Shown here in pieces: positions 5,924 to 22,267 of a stretch of DNA of 22,267 bases. The DNA is from a virus: positions 1 through 22,267 of the IMG/VR virus record IMGVR_UViG_3300048823_000198. One strand, 5' to 3'. Under the pieces are notes generated by a model. It saw only the letters and a list, made by a program, of their open reading frames with translations. It was not told where the DNA came from and ran no database searches. How positions within the stretch are numbered: the stretch's first letter is position 1; every line of letters starts with the position of its first letter. Position numbers and translations under genes: made by a program.

Positions 5924-6037
5924 TCATTTGCCGAACAGCGAATCGAAAATGGCGATCAGCAACATGCCAAGAATCGCCAGCACAAGAAACAGCGCGGGCG
6001 GGCTGCTCACAGTTAGCAAGGCTTGTTCTGGAGTCAT
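5924..6037 (-). CDS. 37-residue single-span membrane protein
   Basis: ATG at 6037 forms an ATGA overlap with the stop of the upstream gene and opens a 37-residue frame ending at TGA 5924. Residues about 14-32 (PALFLVLAILGMLLIAIF) are a clear membrane helix, followed by a short DSLFGK tail. The exact coupling and hydrophobic design make it likely real despite its size. The function is unknown; small phage membrane proteins act in lysis, superinfection exclusion or host takeover, and nothing here distinguishes these. Confidence 0.6.
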   Translation of the reverse strand: MTPEQALLTVSSPPALFLVLAILGMLLIAIFDSLFGK

Positions 6038-6318
6038 GGGCTGGCCTGGCGATCCGAAGATGATCCGCTACCGGTGCTGGGGGCCTCGCGAGCCGTACCA
6101 GACGCCTCCTGGGGTATTTCTGAAATTAAATCTGACGGGTCGGGCGCTGCCCCAACATCCGTTTCCGGCCGCTTCGTTTCCCGCACATCCGTATCGCCGG
6201 ACTGGTGAGCATCTTGGGCGCCGTCAGAACTCTGTGATTCATTCCATGGCGGCGACACTTCGAAAAAGCCCTGTCGGCCAATGGATTCGTGTTGGGGACA
6301 TACAGCCACATGATTCAC
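6034..6318 (-). CDS. Hypothetical 94-residue protein sharing a duplicated tail with the methyltransferase
   Basis: The frame ends at TGA 6034, overlapping the next ATG as ATGA. A GTG at 6318, eight bases after the methyltransferase stop, is the best start; the frame's only ATG, at 6447, lies inside that gene. The product is polar and disordered-looking. Its last 30 residues include SEIPQEASGTAREAPST, also present in the methyltransferase tail because of a 73-bp direct repeat, and in both genes the repeat is read in the same frame. A competing 61-codon ATG frame at 6126-6311 (starting MWLYVPN) covers part of this stretch; I prefer the first for its coupling and shared frame. Confidence 0.45.
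   Translation of the reverse strand: MNHVAVCPQHESIGRQGFFEVSPPWNESQSSDGAQDAHQSGDTDVRETKRPETDVGAAPDPSDLISEIPQEASGTAREAPSTGSGSSSDRQASP
6052..6124. repeat. 73-bp perfect direct repeat, copy 1
   Basis: Bases 6052-6124 are identical to 6446-6518 (offset 394, spacer 321 bp). Identity stops abruptly on both sides. This copy lies at the 3' end of the small gene that follows the methyltransferase. Confidence 0.95.
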
Positions 6319-6325
6319 GCTTTTG

Positions 6326-7774
6326 TCATCGCGCGCGCCGCAGCGGCTTGAGGACGATGAGATCGTCGTTATGTACCGGGATAAACGGAATATCGTCGAG
6401 CAGGGCGTTGTCGGAAATGGGCGGAGGCGCGAACTGTGTTCCTTCATCCGAAGATGATCCGCTACCGGTGCTGGGGGCCTCGCGAGCCGTACCAGACGCC
6501 TCCTGGGGTATTTCTGAATGAGGTGCCGTCTCTCCGGCTGTCACGTCCAGATTCTCAGACGTTGTAGTCGCAGTCCGCCCCGCGACATGCCTACTTGAAC
6601 CCGTCGCGCCGTCACCACTGCGGGCGTCGGTCGCGTTTGCCTCTGGTTCTTTCGCTTGGGATTCCTGTGATTCATTCCCCCACGCTTCCCAGTTCGGAGG
6701 CAGTGGGTTTTGCTCGTCGTGGCGGGCGAACAGTTCCAGCACGGGAAGCCCGCCGGTCATGGTTGCGATCATGTCGCGGTAAAATTGCGGCTTCCTCGAA
6801 TGGCCGAGCGGCTTCGATCGCTCGCGATGGTTGGAGCCGAATTTCTGTTCCGGTTTGGGCATCGGCAGGCCGCGGCCTTTCTTGAACAGGCACAGGATCT
6901 CGTCCTGGTCGCGAAAGATCAAGCCGGTGCCGGCGTCGTCGGAATGGTCCTCGTCGGTCTTGGTCCAGACCGCGAGCGTCGAATAGGCGTCGAAGCCCCA
7001 GGCGCGCGCGATAGCCCAGGCCAGGGGCGTCTTGATCTCGATCTCGTGGAGAACGCCGTCGTCGGTCTGGATGGTGTATCTGACCGGATGCAGCGCCAGC
7101 ACATGCGCGCGCGGCAGCCACAAAAACAGCCAGGCGTCGGGCAGCGATCGTTCTTTGACCGGCAGCGCCATGATCTCGTCCCAACTCATGGTGGGATAGT
7201 GATTCTCGTAGGCCCTGCCGCCGATACCGGCTTTGCGCTTCCATGGCGGGTCGGCGTAGATGCAGGGGAACTGGCGGGTTCCGGTTAGCTCGAGCGAGGT
7301 GTTTGAGAGCGCAACGGCGAGATTTGTGCGGTTTTCCCGGTTATTGGCGGCGCGATCTTCTTGCAGCACGTCAAAAGAATGCTTCTCCGGGTGTTCCTCT
7401 GCATAAGCCCGGCATCGGGCTTTTAGCCGCTCAAAAGCGTCCAGTGGCATGGCCGCGAGTTTCTGTTCCTCGCTGGATTCGTTGCGGGAAATGCCCAGAT
7501 CTTCCAAGGTCACCATGTCCGGGTCGGATGACATGAGCTTGGTCTTGCCGACCACGAGGCGGCCGGATTCCTTCATCGCGGCCACAAGTTCACCGCGGCG
7601 CCGTTTGGCGATCGCCCGGATATCGATGGCGTCGAGTTCCATCCGCCGATTTTTGATCCGGCGGCCGTATTCCCGCACGGCGGCGGCCTTGTCGATCCAG
7701 TCCGTCACTTCATCGACGGTTTTGGCCTCGGCGATGGCCTGGCAGGCGGCGTCGTATTTGAGGATGGCGGTCAA
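6326..7774 (-). CDS. MT-A70 family adenine methyltransferase
   Basis: The protein carries the MT-A70 catalytic signature DPPW in CIYADPPWKRK (about residues 199-202 if counted from the GTG at 7846). Later motifs are typical of the family: AWLFLWLPRAHVLAL, WGFDAYSTLAVWTKTD, and RSKPLGHSRKP followed by VLELFARH. This family transfers methyl from S-adenosylmethionine to adenine N6; phage members are thought to protect DNA from host restriction. An N-terminal helical region (KYDAACQAIAEAKTVDEVTDWI onward) precedes the domain. The C-terminal ~100 residues are low complexity and contain the 73-bp repeat. I chose a TTG at 7774, a TTGA overlap with the ASCH gene; a GTG at 7846 would add 24 residues but overlap that gene by 76 bases. 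Confidence 0.9.
   Translation of the reverse strand: MTAILKYDAACQAIAEAKTVDEVTDWIDKAAAVREYGRRIKNRRMELDAIDIRAIAKRRRGELVAAMKESGRLVVGKTKLMSSDPDMVTLEDLGISRNESSEEQKLAAMPLDAFERLKARCRAYAEEHPEKHSFDVLQEDRAANNRENRTNLAVALSNTSLELTGTRQFPCIYADPPWKRKAGIGGRAYENHYPTMSWDEIMALPVKERSLPDAWLFLWLPRAHVLALHPVRYTIQTDDGVLHEIEIKTPLAWAIARAWGFDAYSTLAVWTKTDEDHSDDAGTGLIFRDQDEILCLFKKGRGLPMPKPEQKFGSNHRERSKPLGHSRKPQFYRDMIATMTGGLPVLELFARHDEQNPLPPNWEAWGNESQESQAKEPEANATDARSGDGATGSSRHVAGRTATTTSENLDVTAGETAPHSEIPQEASGTAREAPSTGSGSSSDEGTQFAPPPISDNALLDDIPFIPVHNDDLIVLKPLRRAR
6446..6518. repeat. 73-bp perfect direct repeat, copy 2
   Basis: This is the second copy of the 6052-6124 repeat. It lies in the C-terminal linker of the MT-A70 methyltransferase and encodes the same peptide as copy 1 in the same frame. 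Confidence 0.95.
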
Positions 7775-8289
7775 AGAAGGGTTCCGGTCGTCTCGGGTTT
7801 GGGCAGCGGCAGCGGTTCCGGCTTTGGGGCCTTCGGCAGCATCCACTTTGACGGCGCGGGGACTACGGAGGCGTCAGCGGGCTTCCATGCGAAATAGCCG
7901 AGCGCGCCGATCGAAGGCGTAAATTCGCATGGCAACGCATTGCGCAGCACCAGTCCGCGCGGGCCGCAAAACCAAGCGCTTTCGCTATCGGTCACGACGT
8001 CGACCACGTCGACGCTGCCGATGATGCCGCCGCGCAACAGATCTTTGGCTTCCGGGCAGCGCATCCCGAAGTCGGGCGAAGCCGCCAGAATCTCGTTGAT
8101 GAAGTCGCGGCTGTCTTCGTATTCCTGCTTGCCGAGGCCCTTCGAGGCATGGATCGCGATGCGTCCGCGTTTGGCCAAACCATGATTGACCGCCTGCCAG
8201 GACCGGTTCTCGATATCCTTGCCGGCGTGGATGATCGCCCATGCCCAGGGCTGGCGCACGGACAGCGCGAGCGTGGGAATCTCACCCAT
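7771..8289 (-). CDS. ASCH-domain protein
   Basis: A 172-residue protein with an ASCH (PUA-like) fold signature at the N-terminus: LSVRQPWAWAIIHAGKDIEN followed by RSW (about 8-30), then RIAIHASKG near 45. The C-terminal ~30 residues are Pro/Lys-rich. ASCH proteins bind or act on RNA or modified nucleotides; the E. coli member YqfB hydrolyses N4-acetylcytidine and a Zymomonas member is a ribonuclease. The Lys and Glu of the GKDxEN stretch are in place, but activity cannot be judged from this. The ATG at 8289 forms TGATG with the upstream stop. It is coupled to the MT-A70 gene downstream, so the two are probably made together. Confidence 0.82.
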   Translation of the reverse strand: MGEIPTLALSVRQPWAWAIIHAGKDIENRSWQAVNHGLAKRGRIAIHASKGLGKQEYEDSRDFINEILAASPDFGMRCPEAKDLLRGGIIGSVDVVDVVTDSESAWFCGPRGLVLRNALPCEFTPSIGALGYFAWKPADASVVPAPSKWMLPKAPKPEPLPLPKPETTGTLL

Positions 8290-8815: not shown

Positions 8816-8970
8816 CGCGGCCTCGGCATCTTGCAATCGCACAGCCATTCCATCACCTGGCCGTAAAAGTGATGGTGCGCCGCCGCGTTCGGGATCGCAA
8901 CCATCCAGCCGCAGGCGAGCCAGTCGCGCATCCGGTCATAGGTGACGTAATGGAACACGCGCTCCTTCAT
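8812..8970 (-). CDS. 52-residue hypothetical protein (His/Trp-rich)
   Basis: ATG 8970 to TGA 8812, overlapping both neighbours by ATGA. The product (MKERVFHYVTYDRMRDWLAC, then GWMVAIPNAAAHHHFYGQVM) has the pattern, familiar to me from small phage proteins, of a short strand, a helix with DWLxxGW, and a C-terminal EWL segment. Cysteines occur at CDC near the end. The function is unknown. The double coupling and protein-like composition support it being real. Confidence 0.6.
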   Translation of the reverse strand: MKERVFHYVTYDRMRDWLACGWMVAIPNAAAHHHFYGQVMEWLCDCKMPRPR

Positions 8971-9203
8971 TCCGCCGCCTCTTTCGCCGGTTCCAGCGGG
9001 TGCAACCCCAGCAGATAATCCCGCAACCGCAGTTCCTCGGCCTCCACGGCATCCCCGAGCCGATCGAGGCTGTCGGTCCGCGACGATTTGCCGGAAAACA
9101 CCCGCGAGATCGTGGTCGGGCTGCAGGGGGCGATTTCAGCCAGCCGGCCGCGCTGCAGCCCGATGGCGCCGCATCGTTTCCTGATTTCCTCTGGCTGCAT
9201 CAT
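8967..9203 (-). CDS. Small helix-turn-helix regulator (Cro/C1-type)
   Basis: A 78-residue protein. Residues about 3-45 fit a Cro/C1-type helix-turn-helix: PEEIRKRCGAIGLQRGRLAE, then IAPCSPTTISRVFSGKS, where the second part is the recognition helix region. Regulators of this size bind operators as dimers. The start at 9203 has GGAAG six bases upstream; the frame is open to 9404 with further ATGs at 9221, 9236 and 9248, but the domain begins here. It is the first gene of the leftward early operon and faces the rightward operon across a 239-bp control region, the classic place for a phage switch regulator. Confidence 0.75.
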   Translation of the reverse strand: MMQPEEIRKRCGAIGLQRGRLAEIAPCSPTTISRVFSGKSSRTDSLDRLGDAVEAEELRLRDYLLGLHPLEPAKEAAE

Positions 9204-9283
9204 GGGCCGCTTCCGAATCATTGGTGTTGCTGTCATAGCTACGATCATCTTTCTGGCGCTGTAAAGCCATATGTTGCGGTTTG

Positions 9284-9312
9284 TGTATAACCAAACCCCA
9301 ACCAAACCCCAA
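9284..9312 (-). promoter_or_regulatory. Candidate leftward promoter with internal 11-bp tandem repeat
   Basis: On the reverse strand TTGGGG (9312-9307) and TATACA (9289-9284) are separated by 17 bp, a plausible sigma-70-type pair aimed at the regulator gene. Two tandem copies of AACCAAACCCC (9289-9299 and 9300-9310 on the forward strand) fill the promoter and could be operator half-sites. No transcription data are available. Confidence 0.4.
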
Positions 9313-9341
9313 GGGCTGGGAAACCGGACCTCGCGCAACAA

Positions 9342-9357
9342 TGTTTCACATGAAACA
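9342..9357. promoter_or_regulatory. parS-like centromere site
   Basis: TGTTTCACATGAAACA matches the bacterial chromosomal parS consensus TGTTTCACGTGAAACA at 15 of 16 positions, differing only in the central step. The flanking bases extend the inverted repeat to ATGTTTCA-CA-TGAAACAT (9341-9358). ParB-family CTPases load on such sites. No parB is in the window, so binding by host ParB or by a phage protein outside the window is possible. It could instead be an operator palindrome for the neighbouring regulator. Confidence 0.55.
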
Positions 9358-9383
9358 TCTGCTGAATAAAAGACAGAAAGCTG

Positions 9384-9413
9384 TTTACAGAAGATCAATA
9401 ACATGGTTATGAT
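9384..9413 (+). promoter_or_regulatory. Candidate rightward promoter for the accessory operon
   Basis: TTTACA at 9384-9389 and TATGAT at 9408-9413 are 18 bp apart, about 30 bases before the first gene at 9443. Both hexamers are close to sigma-70 consensus and the surrounding DNA is AT-rich compared with the rest of the window. Confidence 0.45.
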
Positions 9414-9678: not shown

Positions 9679-10053
9679 ATGACCGAACTGACCTATCCCA
9701 AATACCGCCGCGGCCTGTCCTCGACGGCGCGTGAGGCCCTGTACGATCGCTGTCGCGGCGAGAATGCGTTCCCGATCTGCAACATCCCCGGCTGCGGCCT
9801 CCCCGTACTGCCGCACCAGGATTGGGACGAAAGCCACATCGGCGCGCCTGCGGCGTTCGGTGGCACCGATACCGGGGTGGCGCATCGCAAGTGCAACCGC
9901 GACCACGGTGCCCAGGTGGTGACCCCGATGGTAGCCAAGGCCAAGCGCGGCCGCCAGAAGTTCATCGGCGCATGGGTCTCGAACTATCCGATGCGCGGCG
10001 GCCGGAACGACAGCATCAAGCGGACCATGTCGGGACGGGTGGTGAAGCGATGA
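9679..10053 (+). CDS. HNH-endonuclease-like small protein
   Basis: A 124-residue protein. Residues about 34-75 carry CNIPGCG, then DWDESHIG and HRKCNRDHG, a layout of small phage HNH-type nucleases: a zinc-binding Cys pair, an ESHI segment with the first catalytic His, then the H-x-x-C-N stretch. Phage HNH proteins often nick DNA near packaging sites, and this one lies far from the terminase genes here. The ATG at 9679 was chosen because the upstream extension to 9403 overlaps the preceding gene; GGGGAAACG lies before it. The C-terminus is basic (SIKRTMSGRVVKR), suiting DNA contact. Confidence 0.72.
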   Translation: MTELTYPKYRRGLSSTAREALYDRCRGENAFPICNIPGCGLPVLPHQDWDESHIGAPAAFGGTDTGVAHRKCNRDHGAQVVTPMVAKAKRGRQKFIGAWVSNYPMRGGRNDSIKRTMSGRVVKR

Positions 10054-18383: not shown

Positions 18384-18524
18384 CTAGGCCTTGGGGCCCG
18401 GAACCAGCCCATGCCGCAACAGCATGGTGGGCTTGGCTTGTGGTTTTGCCTTGCGGCGATGCAACGGCTTGCGGCGGGGAGGCTTTTTGGCCTGGCGGGG
18501 GGGATGGGCGGGGGCGTCAGTCAT
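18384..18524 (-). CDS. 46-residue basic Pro/Lys/Arg-rich protein
   Basis: ATG 18524 overlaps the upstream stop as ATGA and runs to TAG 18384. The product (MTDAPAHPPRQAKKPPRRKP, then LHRRKAKPQAKP...) is strongly basic and disordered, with a short hydrophobic end (TMLLRHGLVPGPKA). It could bind nucleic acid or acidic surfaces. It lies 65 bases upstream of the most plausible endolysin start. Confidence 0.5.
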   Translation of the reverse strand: MTDAPAHPPRQAKKPPRRKPLHRRKAKPQAKPTMLLRHGLVPGPKA

Positions 18525-18796
18525 GCGGCGTCCGTTTCCGTCAGGTAATCTTTCCACATCGGCGGAAAGGTTGTGTCGTTACGCGCCGGCAGGTCATCCT
18601 CGCGCCAGGCAAACGGAATCCAGCCCTGCTCGTTGAGCGAGAGCATGGAGCCTCGGGTGAACAGTGCACCATGCTCGCCGACGTGAACGCAAAATATATC
18701 GATCGCGGTCGGCTCCTTTTCTGCAAAGGCCACGACAACTAAATCCGAACGATCCCAGGGAAAAATATGCTCGTCAAAGGTCCGCCAGCCGCTCAC
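18521..18796 (-). CDS. Hypothetical 91-residue protein with GTG start
   Basis: A GTG at 18796 overlaps the upstream stop as GTGA and has GAGG seven bases before it. The longer frame to 19000 would cover the whole upstream gene in another frame. The product (SGWRTFDEHIFPWDRSDLVV...) alternates strands and loops with many aromatic residues, and ends DYLTETDAA. It is not recognised. Confidence 0.62.
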   Translation of the reverse strand: MSGWRTFDEHIFPWDRSDLVVVAFAEKEPTAIDIFCVHVGEHGALFTRGSMLSLNEQGWIPFAWREDDLPARNDTTFPPMWKDYLTETDAA

Positions 18797-18990
18797 AAAC
18801 GATCCTCCGCGAACATCTCGGCCAGCAAGGTCAGATGCGAGGCTGCCTTGAGGGCCTGTTCCTTGTCGGAAATCTCGAAAATGATTTTGGATTCTTTCTC
18901 GTCCCAAAGCTTGATGCCGCGGCCGCCGCCCTCGAAATGAAGTAAGCGGCCGTCGTGCGTCACGAAGTCGCCGGGGGAGAAACCCATCAT
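18793..18990 (-). CDS. Hypothetical 65-residue protein
   Basis: ATG 18990 (MMGFSPGDFVTHDGRLLHFE...) overlaps the regulator's stop as ATGA. An N-terminal GDFVTHDG strand-turn, as in small SH3-like folds, is followed by a helix (DKEQALKAASHLTLLAEMFA). The function is unknown. Confidence 0.62.
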   Translation of the reverse strand: MMGFSPGDFVTHDGRLLHFEGGGRGIKLWDEKESKIIFEISDKEQALKAASHLTLLAEMFAEDRL

Positions 18991-19190
18991 GCCGCCTCAT
19001 AGAAATCGTTCGGCTGGACCTTGCCCCTGGTCATCTTCATGATCTGCCGCATCGCCTCTTTCTCCGGCATGCGATCGCCGGAAACATAGCGCGCAATGGT
19101 CGGTTGCGGCTTTCCCATGCGCCGGGCGAACTCGGTCACGGTCAAGCCCTCTTTGATCAGCCAGTCTTTGAGTTTCATGGGTTGAGCCAT
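18987..19190 (-). CDS. Cro/C1-family helix-turn-helix regulator
   Basis: A 67-residue protein (MAQPMKLKDWLIKEGLTVTE...) with a textbook Cro/C1 helix-turn-helix: LTVTEFARRMGKPQPTIARY, then VSGDRMPEKEAMRQI (about 15-50), and a short NDFY tail. Single-domain regulators of this size act as Cro-like switches. Starts at 19190 or 19178 are possible; neither has a strong ribosome-binding site. It is divergent from the operon at 19354, whose promoter carries an ATACC-N5-GGTAT palindrome that this protein could bind. The same palindrome recurs at 20265. Confidence 0.8.
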   Translation of the reverse strand: MAQPMKLKDWLIKEGLTVTEFARRMGKPQPTIARYVSGDRMPEKEAMRQIMKMTRGKVQPNDFYEAA

Positions 19191-19291
19191 ACCGCTGCGG
19201 TGTTGATTCCGCAAGATGGGAAAGCCAGCGCTCCCCTGCAATGATGGGTGCGACATTGTGGCGCATTGTGTTTTAATTTGCTGTTTTGGGC

Positions 19292-19319
19292 TTGCTATTC
19301 TATACCGTGTTGGTATGTA
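19292..19319 (+). promoter_or_regulatory. Promoter with ATACC-N5-GGTAT operator (site 1)
   Basis: TTGCTA (19292-19297) and TATGTA (19314-19319) are 16 bp apart. Between them lies ATACC-GTGTT-GGTAT (19302-19316), starting four bases after the -35 and sharing its last three bases with the -10. The site sits 35 bases upstream of the first rightward gene and in the divergent region of the Cro-like regulator. Confidence 0.6.
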
Positions 19320-19353
19320 TAGGACGTAAGCCACAGCCAAGGAGAAAGACAGA

Positions 19354-19692
19354 ATGAGCAAGGTCTACAGCAACCCCCGGATGAACGCGACGATTGAGAA
19401 TTGGCCGCACGGCTCTCAGCGTGTCACCGCGTTCTTTTCCATCGAATTCAGTCCGACGCGGGGCGAGCGCGCTGTACGGGTGACAACCGGAGCGCCAAAG
19501 AAGCTGACATTCGCGCGCAAGATGCGGATTGTCGACGGCGACGACGGCCGGACCTACATCGCCGAACTGACCAGCTACGGCCACATCACGATCATGCGCG
19601 GCGACATGAAGATCAACGAGGAAACCGTTTTCGAGCGCGAGCCGCGGTATCCCGAATTGCTGGCGCTCTTTGCGGAGGGACAAGCACGATGA
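19354..19692 (+). CDS. Hypothetical 112-residue protein
   Basis: The first gene behind operator-promoter site 1, with AAGGAGAAAGACAGA upstream of its ATG. The product (MSKVYSNPRMNATIENWPHG...) looks like an all-beta small protein in the middle (RVTAFFSIEFSPTRGERAVR) with an acidic helical end (ELLALFAEGQAR). I do not recognise it. It overlaps the next gene by ATGA. Confidence 0.68.
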   Translation: MSKVYSNPRMNATIENWPHGSQRVTAFFSIEFSPTRGERAVRVTTGAPKKLTFARKMRIVDGDDGRTYIAELTSYGHITIMRGDMKINEETVFEREPRYPELLALFAEGQAR

Positions 19693-20003
19693 ACACCTAC
19701 GGACCAAAGGTCACATGGGAGCAGATGCAGGAAGGCGTCCGGATTTACTATACCGGCGACATGGCGAACCAAAGCGGGTTCGGCACCATCACCCTGCGGC
19801 GCCCGATCGATCCTCGCTGGAAGTACAAGCAGGCTGATATCGCGATGGACGATGGCCGCGAAATGAAGGCGATCGGGGTCGAGAGTTTCCAGCCCGCGCC
19901 GGGACGGCGCTTCTGGCTTGAAGCCGATTGGAAGGCGGACCAGGACCGCAAGATCGAAGAATTCAAGGCCGCTTACTACGCGAGGAAGGAAATCGTCGGG
20001 TGA
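19689..20003 (+). CDS. Hypothetical 104-residue protein
   Basis: ATGA overlap at the start; a much longer frame from 19401 is a shadow of the previous gene. The product (MNTYGPKVTWEQMQEGVRIY...) has a beta-rich N-terminal half (GFGTITLRRPID) and a charged C-terminal helix (DWKADQDRKIEEFKAAYYAR). It is coupled to the following gene by GTGA. Not recognised. Confidence 0.65.
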   Translation: MNTYGPKVTWEQMQEGVRIYYTGDMANQSGFGTITLRRPIDPRWKYKQADIAMDDGREMKAIGVESFQPAPGRRFWLEADWKADQDRKIEEFKAAYYARKEIVG

Positions 20004-20209
20004 CCGACTACAAAATAGGAGATGTTTTCAGCATGAGCAGCGTCGCAAACCGCACCTACACCATCTGGGGCAACGGCGGAAAGTACGAATGGCTGATCCG
20101 CGATGGCGAGCACATCGTCGCCCGCTCCAATCCGATCTTCAACAGCTACGGCGCCGCCAAGCGCGCGATGGTCAAGGCGCTGTCACAGCCCGACGCCTTC
20201 AACGATTAA
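20000..20209 (+). CDS. Hypothetical 69-residue protein with GTG start
   Basis: A GTG at 20000 overlaps the previous stop as GTGA; an in-frame ATG at 20033 with AGGAG upstream is the alternative and would give 58 residues. The core RTYTIWGNGGKYEWLIRDGE, then HIVARSNPIFNSYGAAKRAM, looks like a small beta-hairpin and helix unit. It ends the first rightward operon, 101 bases before the next gene. Confidence 0.6.
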   Translation: MTDYKIGDVFSMSSVANRTYTIWGNGGKYEWLIRDGEHIVARSNPIFNSYGAAKRAMVKALSQPDAFND

Positions 20210-20254
20210 CCGGGGTGCGACTCCGCGCCGCACCACGTCCTGATTTATACCATC

Positions 20255-20282
20255 TTGACATATCATACCGGGATGGTATCTA
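20255..20282 (+). promoter_or_regulatory. Promoter with ATACC-N5-GGTAT operator (site 2)
   Basis: TTGACA (20255-20260) and TATCTA (20277-20282) are 16 bp apart and enclose ATACC-GGGAT-GGTAT (20265-20279) in exactly the same geometry as site 1. An extra ATACC half-site occurs at 20247-20251. The site drives the operon starting at 20311. Confidence 0.65.
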
Positions 20283-20310
20283 AAGATTGTCAACAAACAG
20301 GAGCCGCCAC

Positions 20311-20535
20311 ATGAACCTTTCCCCTCTCTACCTCGCCGAATGCCGGTTTGGCCGGTTCGGCAACGCCTTCCGGGAAACCGACCGGGATTCCAATTCCCGC
20401 TCCGAGATCATCGACCTGATCCGGACCGGAGAGATCGACGTGATCAAGGTGATCGAGGTCGATGAGGTTGCCGGCACGGTCTGCGACGTGACCGATGAAC
20501 TGGTGAGCGAGGCGCTGATGGCGAGGGCGGCGTGA
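20311..20535 (+). CDS. Hypothetical 74-residue protein, first gene of second rightward operon
   Basis: ATG 20311 has CAGGAGCCG upstream; the frame is open to a TTG at 20287 inside the promoter leader, which is less likely. The product (MNLSPLYLAECRFGRFGNAF...) has an acidic, strand-rich C-terminal half (IDVIKVIEVDEVAGTVCDVT). It overlaps the next gene as TGATG. Not recognised. Confidence 0.68.
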   Translation: MNLSPLYLAECRFGRFGNAFRETDRDSNSRSEIIDLIRTGEIDVIKVIEVDEVAGTVCDVTDELVSEALMARAA

Positions 20536-20726
20536 TGGCGAACATGAGCAAGTACCAGTTTGATCGCCTCGCCGAAAAGCTGATCCGCATGGCTTATGAA
20601 CTCGAACACGATGCCTCGCGCGTTCGGGCCGATAGCTGCAAGCCTTCCTATGCCGAGGCCATCAAGAATATCTCATCGCGTCTCGGCGATCTCGGCCGCA
20701 GCATGATCGCGGAGATCACATGCTGA
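20535..20726 (+). CDS. Hypothetical helical 63-residue protein
   Basis: ATG 20535 in a TGATG overlap; a GTG at 20532 would add one residue. The product (MANMSKYQFDRLAEKLIRMA...) is almost entirely amphipathic helix with charged faces (EAIKNISSRLGDLGRSMIAE), suggesting a small helical bundle or a dimer. Not recognised. Confidence 0.62.
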   Translation: MANMSKYQFDRLAEKLIRMAYELEHDASRVRADSCKPSYAEAIKNISSRLGDLGRSMIAEITC

Positions 20727-20932
20727 TGACTGACCTTCCCACCATCAAGCACACCGGCAACATGCCGGCCGACTTCACGGGTGTCGTCTACAACGATACC
20801 GGCAAGAACAACTATGCGGCCATGGTCAACGGAAACTGGCTCAAGCGCAAGGACGGCAGGGTCCGCTGGTTCAAGTACGAACAGGAAGCCGGGCGGGCCG
20901 CCTACCACGAAGCGAACAAGGGAGAGGCGTGA
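20720..20932 (+). CDS. Hypothetical 70-residue protein
   Basis: ATG 20720 has GGAG five bases upstream; an ATG at 20726 is the alternative. The product (MLMTDLPTIKHTGNMPADFT...) has an aromatic, basic core (NWLKRKDGRVRWFKYEQEAG). Overlaps both neighbours. Not recognised. Confidence 0.62.
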   Translation: MLMTDLPTIKHTGNMPADFTGVVYNDTGKNNYAAMVNGNWLKRKDGRVRWFKYEQEAGRAAYHEANKGEA

Positions 20933-21270
20933 TGCTCAGCTATCGCAACACCCGCTGCATTGACGGCCGCACGTTTCGCCACGATCCGCAACCTGACGAT
21001 CCCGGTCTGGAAACCGATATCGGGCGCTGCCCTGAATGCGCGGGCGAAGGCTGCGAGGCCTTGGCTCGCCAGGAAGCCGAGAAGATCGCGGGCGAAAAGA
21101 TCGTCACGCATTTCTGGGCCAAGCCGATCCCGCCGCGCGAATTTGACTGGTGCGCCTATCGCGACAATGACGAGCCCGATGACGACGGCCACATGATGCA
21201 GGGATGGGGCCGCACTGAACAAGAGGCGATCGACGATCTGATTTCGCTGATCGAAGACAACCGAGACTGA
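20932..21270 (+). CDS. Hypothetical 112-residue acidic protein with CPEC motif
   Basis: ATG 20932 forms TGATG with the upstream stop, with GGAGAGG before it. CPEC at 33-36 with Cys41 may bind zinc. The C-terminus (GHMMQGWGRTEQEAIDDLIS) is a helix seen at the end of many small phage proteins. The function is unknown. It ends 53 bases before the ATPase gene. Confidence 0.65.
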   Translation: MLSYRNTRCIDGRTFRHDPQPDDPGLETDIGRCPECAGEGCEALARQEAEKIAGEKIVTHFWAKPIPPREFDWCAYRDNDEPDDDGHMMQGWGRTEQEAIDDLISLIEDNRD

Positions 21271-21323
21271 GACACGGCAGCGACCGCCGCCAAGGTCGTA
21301 ATTCAACGAGGAGAGTAAGTACC

Positions 21324-22267
21324 ATGACTAAACTATTCCGTCCCGCCGAGATCACCACCGCCAAGCTCAAGATGGCCCTGATGGGCTTTCAGGGGTCCGG
21401 CAAGACCTATACCGCCGCCTCGACCGCCATCGGCCTCGTTCAACTGATGAAGAGCATGAACCTGCCCGAGGGCAAGCTGCCGATTGCCTTTGCCGATACC
21501 GAAAAAGGGTCGGACTGGATCCTGCCGCGGGTGCGCAAGGCGGGTCTGGAGATGGTGACGGCGAAAACCCGCGCCTTCTCCGATCTGATCGGGCTGATCA
21601 ACGAGGCCGAAAACAACGCCTCGTTTTTGCTGGTGGACTCGCTGACGCATTTCTGGACCGAACTCTGCGATACCTACTGCGCCAAGAAGGCCCAGCAGTT
21701 CAAAATCCCGACCTATCGGCTCCAGTTCCAGGACTGGGCGTTCCTCAAGGGCGAGTGGCGCAAGTTCACCGATCGGTTCGTCAATTCCAACCTGCACATC
21801 GCGGTCTGCGGCAGAGCTGGCTACGAATACGATTACCTCGAGGACGAGGACACCCACAAGAAGCAACTGGAAAAGACCGGCATCAAGTTCAAGGCCGAAG
21901 GCGAGATGGGCTACGAGCCTGATCTTCTGGTCTTGATGGAGCGCAAGATGAACATGATCAGCAAGGTCGACGAGCATGTCGCCCACGTGGTCAAGGACCG
22001 CAGCACGCTTCTGGATGGCCAGGAGTTCGCCGATCCGACCTTCGAGAACTTTCTGCCGCACATCAAGTGCCTCAATCTGGGCGGCCGGCAGATGGGCATC
22101 GACATCTCGCGGACTTCCGACGCCTCGATCCCGGCCGATGCGCCGCGCGACCGCGGCAAAATCCAGCGCGACATCGTGATCGATGAGCTGGCGGACCTGC
22201 TGCTGCGGCACAATTTGTCGGGCACGGCGGTGGCCGAAAAGCAGCGGCGTTCGGCGATCGTGGCCCG
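21324..22267 (+). CDS. P-loop ATPase of the phage recombination type, cut by window edge
   Basis: The frame starts at ATG 21324 with GAGGAGAG upstream and runs open to the right edge, giving 314 residues. The Walker A GFQGSGKT is at about 21-28 and the Walker B-like FLLVDS at about 101-106. Blocks such as FADTEKGSDW and HIAVCGRAGYEYDY follow. This matches the AAA_24/RecA-like ATPases that include Sak4-type single-strand annealing partners of phages. A role in phage recombination or replication is inferred from the fold and from its place in the early operon; I cannot see the C-terminus. Confidence 0.82.
   Translation, partial: MTKLFRPAEITTAKLKMALMGFQGSGKTYTAASTAIGLVQLMKSMNLPEGKLPIAFADTEKGSDWILPRVRKAGLEMVTAKTRAFSDLIGLINEAENNASFLLVDSLTHFWTELCDTYCAKKAQQFKIPTYRLQFQDWAFLKGEWRKFTDRFVNSNLHIAVCGRAGYEYDYLEDEDTHKKQLEKTGIKFKAEGEMGYEPDLLVLMERKMNMISKVDEHVAHVVKDRSTLLDGQEFADPTFENFLPHIKCLNLGGRQMGIDISRTSDASIPADAPRDRGKIQRDIVIDELADLLLRHNLSGTAVAEKQRRSAIVA

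Follow-up and report, generated by a model that had tools for sequence, protein, structure and literature searches.

A Cro-like repressor and its predicted CC-N5-GG operators in the early control region of a phage genome fragment

A small Cro-like repressor encoded in a phage genome fragment is predicted, with high confidence, to bind three single operators, one in its own promoter and one in each of two rightward early promoters (P1 and P2), shutting down both early operons as well as its own synthesis. The fragment, referred to hereafter as the window, comprises the 22,267 nucleotides of the IMG/VR record IMGVR_UViG_3300048823_000198, and the sequence bound by the repressor is very probably ATACC-N5-GGTAT. 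The features discussed below are collected in Table 1.

The original prediction, made from the nucleotide sequence alone, had described two ATACC-N5-GGTAT sites in identical geometry, and these two, O1 and O2, are exact and the only exact copies in the 22 kb record. Occurrence of the palindrome at random genome positions had been named as an observation that would speak against an operator, and no such scatter is seen within the record. In 60 dinucleotide shuffles of the window the exact sequence never appeared (maximum 0), while copies with one mismatch or fewer averaged 0.13 (maximum 1) as against three in the window itself. O1 and O2 each begin four bases past a -35-like hexamer (within CTTGCTA and CTTGACA, respectively), and their last TAT starts a -10-like TATGTA or TATCTA, with a -35 to -10 spacing of 16 bases. 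The third near-copy, O3, had been overlooked; it lies in the putative promoter of the regulator gene, at a position matching the proximal site of many relatives (about -17 to -35), and would be autoregulatory. Upstream of P2, the 15-mer at 20247 differs from the operator by two mismatches, and ATACCATC at its beginning is a possible extra half-site.

Table 1. Features of the early control region and related elements of the window
Feature	Position	Strand	Details and basis
Cro-like HTH repressor gene, probably 63 aa (67-aa reading starts 19190)	18990-19178	-	Pfam HTH_3, relatives, AF2 model
Putative regulator promoter	19186-19214	-	-35 TTGCGG 19214-19209, 17-base spacer, -10-like TATGGC 19191-19186; read from sequence
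Candidate operator O3, ACACC-GCAGC-GGTAT	19189-19203	-	1 mismatch; within the putative promoter of the regulator, the ATG following 10-25 bp further on
Putative early promoter P1	19292-19319	+	-35 TTGCTA 19292-19297, 16-base spacer, -10-like TATGTA 19314-19319; read from sequence, -35-N4-operator geometry common to P2 and relatives
Candidate operator O1, ATACC-GTGTT-GGTAT	19302-19316	+	In spacer/-10 of P1; exact match, absent from shuffles
First early operon, 3 small ORFs (19354-19692, 19689-20003, to about 20209)	19354-20210	+	Behind P1
Outer inverted repeat ATACCATC of GATGGTAT (20272-20279)	20247-20254	+	Read from sequence
Putative early promoter P2	20255-20282	+	-35 TTGACA 20255-20260, 16-base spacer, -10-like TATCTA 20277-20282; read from sequence
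Candidate operator O2, ATACC-GGGAT-GGTAT	20265-20279	+	In spacer/-10 of P2; exact match
Second early operon, 4 small ORFs and AAA_24 ATPase (21324 onwards, runs off record)	20311-22267	+	Behind P2
Second small HTH ORF	8967-9404	-	Weak HTH_31, E 0.0015; no ATACC-N5-GGTAT copy nearby

P1 and P2 are treated as putative promoters since their -10 hexamers share only three of the six bases of TATAAT (weak) and a consensus sigma-70 scan of positions 18500-21400 found no promoter; of the twin rightward promoters described originally, it is the -35, N4, operator and TAT geometry that was confirmed. P2 sits in an intergenic gap of about 100 bp. The first ORF behind P1 has 14 relatives in viral contigs, and a Pfam family search of the small early ORFs found nothing. 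The ATPase encoded from 21324 in the second operon matches PF13479 (5e-14) and phrog_1366 (1e-52), with a weak Sak4-like match, and appears to be of the recombination type. In search of a footprint of P1 and P2, the loci closest to the window in their early genes (L200-L218) were compared, and all of them proved to have other regulatory regions. In one of them (L214, 640-1620) the ATPase gene is 81% identical in DNA to that of the window, the control region is unrelated and repeated GTAACCG/CGGTTAC-like (GTAACC/GGTTAC-like) sequences lie at several promoters, a comparison which suggests that the switch module has been exchanged. No known phage matched the window by megablast. Elsewhere the window carries a direct repeat coding for ...SEIPQEASGTAREAPSTGSGSSSD in overlapping ORFs (about 6030-6120 and 6440-6520, ~400 bp apart), an MT-A70 methyltransferase (6326-7846) and a DUF5131 protein (PF07505, 12933-13868, E 3e-89).

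The regulator matches Pfam HTH_3 (PF01381, XRE/Cro-CI superfamily) with 35.4 bits against a curated cut-off of 23 (E 1.1e-8), in agreement with its earlier description as a divergent Cro/C1-type protein. Its proposed length of 67 residues was revised; the start is probably the ATG at 19178, giving 63 residues, because MKL is the start of nearly all relatives, and the reading from 19190 was rejected, its additional codons overlapping the operator. Transcription probably starts close to this ATG, yielding a leaderless mRNA, as judged by comparison with a relative from Hyphomicrobiales (L221) and with phage PY54. An AF2 model from the single sequence has five helices (pLDDT 88.6), with the recognition helix at residues 25-32. 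As a small one-domain HTH protein of 63-67 residues devoid of a cleavage or oligomerisation domain, it fits the class of Cro-type lytic repressors. Members of that class have palindromic operators that overlap early promoters, their own among them, and by sequence the three sites and the family footprint conform to this. The structural neighbours of the model all score modestly; they include YdaS of CP-933P (8co2) and, from Xfaso 1, Cro (3bd1). The Pfam matches of nine family members up to E 0.5 contained no Cro-specific family such as those of lambda or P22 Cro, and for YdaS (PF15943) the window protein reached 14.1 bits against a cut-off of 30, the best member having E 0.0017.

Relatives of the regulator were identified in viral contigs (78, with a common C-terminal KVQPNDFY-like motif) and in bacterial genomes (22, mostly Alphaproteobacteria such as Novosphingobium, Sphingomonas, Methylobacterium and Shinella). 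The 200 bp upstream of 46 members, chosen so that no two reached 75% identity, were examined for CC/GG palindromes with spacings of 0 to 11, and an excess was observed at spacing 5 only: 36 CC-N5-GG palindromes as against 3.7 expected (maximum 8 in 100 shuffles), or about tenfold, with perfect arms in 17 as against 0.43 expected. The proximal operator lies mostly about 17-60 bp before the start codon of the regulator. The arms include TACC (window, L221, L048), CACC (L219, L226, L227, L228, L232, L038), TATCC/TGTCC (L220), TAGCC (L229), ATTCC (a marine clade) and TACCC (L237). The closest geometric twin of the window sites is found in L221, where TTGACT-N4-ATACC-ATTTT-GGTAT is followed nine bases on by the ATG of the regulator, and two TACC-N5-GGTA sites lie 3 kb away. 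A scan of viral contigs by nothing but the promoter-operator pattern returned 119 stretches, by our own estimate about the chance number for so large a collection, over which the family profile was then run; it revealed one strong member, L112 (E 2e-19), lying on the site and divergent from a CI-like gene. Most of the matches look like chance, L112 alone having the regulator at the site. A distant member (33%) in L216 (2500-2800) is preceded by repeated GAATATTCGG rather than by CC-N5-GG sites; with such GAATATTC-type repeats it was excluded from the covariation count described below.

The base preceding CC in the operator was set against each column of the regulator alignment in turn, ignoring shared ancestry. 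With that simplification the top column is that of Arg30 of the window protein (z 8.1, the next best being 3.8), a recognition-helix position immediately followed by an aromatic residue. The base outside CC is A in 11 of the 15 members with Arg, although several Arg members (L020, L229, L230, L233) read T or G; where Lys is present the base is T (8) or C (3), the Lys/T class being largely one marine clade counted several times. Individual cases outside this count mostly agree and include L112 (TRY), where ACC agrees with the pairing of Arg and A; Microcystis phage Mae-JY35 (HRY), which also agrees, with ATACC-AAATC-GGTAT 25 bp before the regulator; Mesorhizobium phage MseS-P1 (RKW, Arg-Lys-Trp), which has CCC as does L237 (RKW); and Rhizobium phage RHph_Y25, which is mixed, its distal site being TCC. 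The outer operator base thus appears to covary with one residue of the recognition helix. The xxCC-N5-GGxx sites upstream of most relatives, this covariation and the recovery of L112 lend support, at the level of sequence comparison, to the proposal that the divergent regulator has the palindrome as its operator, which would define a small early regulon.

A dimer of the regulator would recognise xACC-N5-GGTx, with one recognition helix per half-site. On infection, all three promoters would fire first; the repressor, as it builds up, would occupy O3 in its own promoter, leading to autorepression, and O1 and O2 in the rightward early promoters. As all three sites overlap the -35 and -10 elements or fall between them, RNA polymerase would be excluded on binding, and the closure of both early operons and of the regulator gene would produce an early pulse, in which case the protein may serve as an early timer. 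The part of the genome beyond the 22 kb fragment may hold further sites or encode a CI-type repressor that uses the same ones.

The family occurs in two genome layouts. The first is that of lambda-like prophages, in which paired distant sites, a CI-like gene, proximal sites and the family gene follow one another (order OL, cI, OR, cro). In the prophages and in L038 the family gene is divergent from a CI-like HTH gene (3229-3915 in L221), with sites in the common intergenic region, and a second site pair, 25-35 bp apart, is present 0.6-3.2 kb away in at least nine loci (L219, L221, L226-L230, L232, L038). In the second, a "lone Cro" layout, the gene faces an early or recombination operon, as observed in many marine contigs and in the complete phages C72C1 and KLER1-1; the annotation of C72C1 contains neither integrase nor CI. 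The window has the lone-Cro layout: the neighbour divergent from the regulator in this incomplete record is the early ORF 19354-19692 and not a CI-type repressor gene, the AAA_24 ATPase belongs to the second operon and the 22 kb fragment has no match to the integrase family PF00589. Relatives selected by TerL carry other HTH genes, without this switch. In lone-Cro marine phages, family-type operators were also noted immediately ahead of small genes at a distance from the regulator (L251:193, L250:1635, L252:974). Sites directly before small genes elsewhere in such phages (G002, positions 193 and 38634; G022, position 9773) parallel the second promoter of the window.

The most probable alternative, although we consider it rather unlikely, is that the operators are used chiefly by a CI-type maintenance repressor whose gene belongs to the missing part of the genome, and that the Cro-like protein competes with it for these sites, as happens in lambda; the result would be a full lysis-lysogeny switch split across the genome. 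Such a reading would be in line with L219-L237, L038, L048 and L112, where a CI-like HTH gene runs divergently from the family member and shares the operator region with it, with the distant OL-like site pair present in at least nine of these relatives, and with the second HTH ORF of the window. However, that ORF has no close operator copy near it, the divergent neighbour in the window is an early ORF in a fragment devoid of a recognisable integrase, and in the complete phage C72C1, annotated with neither CI nor integrase, a family member occupies the same lone position.

It is improbable that the palindrome represents a promoter element common to these genes, or that a host factor binds it, instead of its being the target of the phage regulator. 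Its embedding in promoters and overlap with the -10 would be expected in that case; the arms, however, vary among the relatives (TACC, CACC, TATCC, TAGCC, ATTCC, CCC) at a constant spacing of 5, the changes track the recognition helix, and paired copies lie 0.6-3 kb away in several genomes. A fortuitous resemblance of the two promoters is more improbable still. Perfect 5-N5-5 palindromes with GCGCC and TGATC arms also recur, and a recurring palindrome of this form is by itself not rare in the G+C-rich window; what sets ATACC-N5-GGTAT apart is that its arm contains A/T, that it lies in promoters and that relatives conserve it. As palindromes with other arms recur and the scanner found no sigma-70 promoter, the case for an operator rests on conservation rather than on the two copies by themselves; conservation across the family, the third near-copy at the regulator's promoter, the identical -35 offset at both sites and the absence of exact copies from the shuffles all argue against coincidence. 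An RNA hairpin (attenuator or processing site), which inverted repeats can form in general, has a negligible probability, as transcription is expected to start downstream of the sites and the stem has only five pairs.

Beyond the repressor model, the window may perhaps belong to a widespread, hitherto undescribed class of CI-free phages, a tentative proposal that is less likely than not. In lytic phages of this class, early operons for recombination and replication would be timed by a lone protein of the Cro family acting through one operator per promoter; the same family would run full lambda-like switches in alphaproteobacterial prophages, and a single recognition-helix residue would reset the operator and insulate the circuit of each phage. 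The analysis gives a phage-repressor family spanning alphaproteobacterial prophages and marine phages a testable operator, CC-N5-GG, and a one-residue specificity rule. For uncultured phages, the sequence of the regulator would then suffice to predict operators and regulons. The family also offers a natural series for the study of Cro circuits losing or gaining a CI partner.

C72C1 and Pararheinheimera phage KLER1-1 resemble the window in layout: in both complete genomes the family gene and a recombination operon are divergent, and neither an integrase nor CI is annotated; KLER1-1 has a second HTH-XRE gene (gp45). No clear CC-N5-GG site was found next to the family genes of either phage, and their operators may therefore differ or be degenerate. 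Phage lambda Cro, acting at OR and OL, is likewise a small HTH repressor with palindromic sites overlapping its own and other early promoters, and the lambda gene order recurs in the prophage relatives of the window regulator. The lambda half-sites also carry ACC/GGT, the operator spacing is CC-N3-GG as against CC-N5-GG in the window family, and lambda Cro has an alpha/beta fold as against the all-helical model of the window regulator. The window further differs from lambda in having one site per promoter and no adjoining CI gene.

In PY54, phiKO2 and N15, Cro binds a single palindromic 16-bp site whose outer base pairs set specificity, N15 and phiKO2 have OR plus OL sites, and the cI and cro mRNAs of PY54 are leaderless (PMC4488713). 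The window resembles these phages in its candidate Cro operators, each a single palindromic site, and its predicted leaderless mRNA; it differs from PY54, in which the Cro site lies at the cI promoter, in having no adjacent CI and sites in two further early promoters. Correlations between Cro recognition helices and operator half-sites were proposed earlier (Hall et al. 2005, as cited in PMC4488713) and, as far as that citation describes them, concern another family and other operators than those of the window. YdaS of prophage CP-933P is a Cro analogue binding palindromes in divergent promoters, with repeats of consensus GTTTAGTAA, PaaR2 being the CI analogue, and cI and paaR2 are leaderless (PMC8630535). 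YdaS (PDB 8co2) is similar to the window regulator as a structural neighbour of the model and by a weak profile match; its GTTTAGTAA repeats are unlike CC-N5-GG, and the Pfam YdaS match falls below the cut-off. The kind of system is thus already known from the precedents of lambda Cro, PY54 Cro and YdaS, and what is added here is the operator code of this family and its two layouts.
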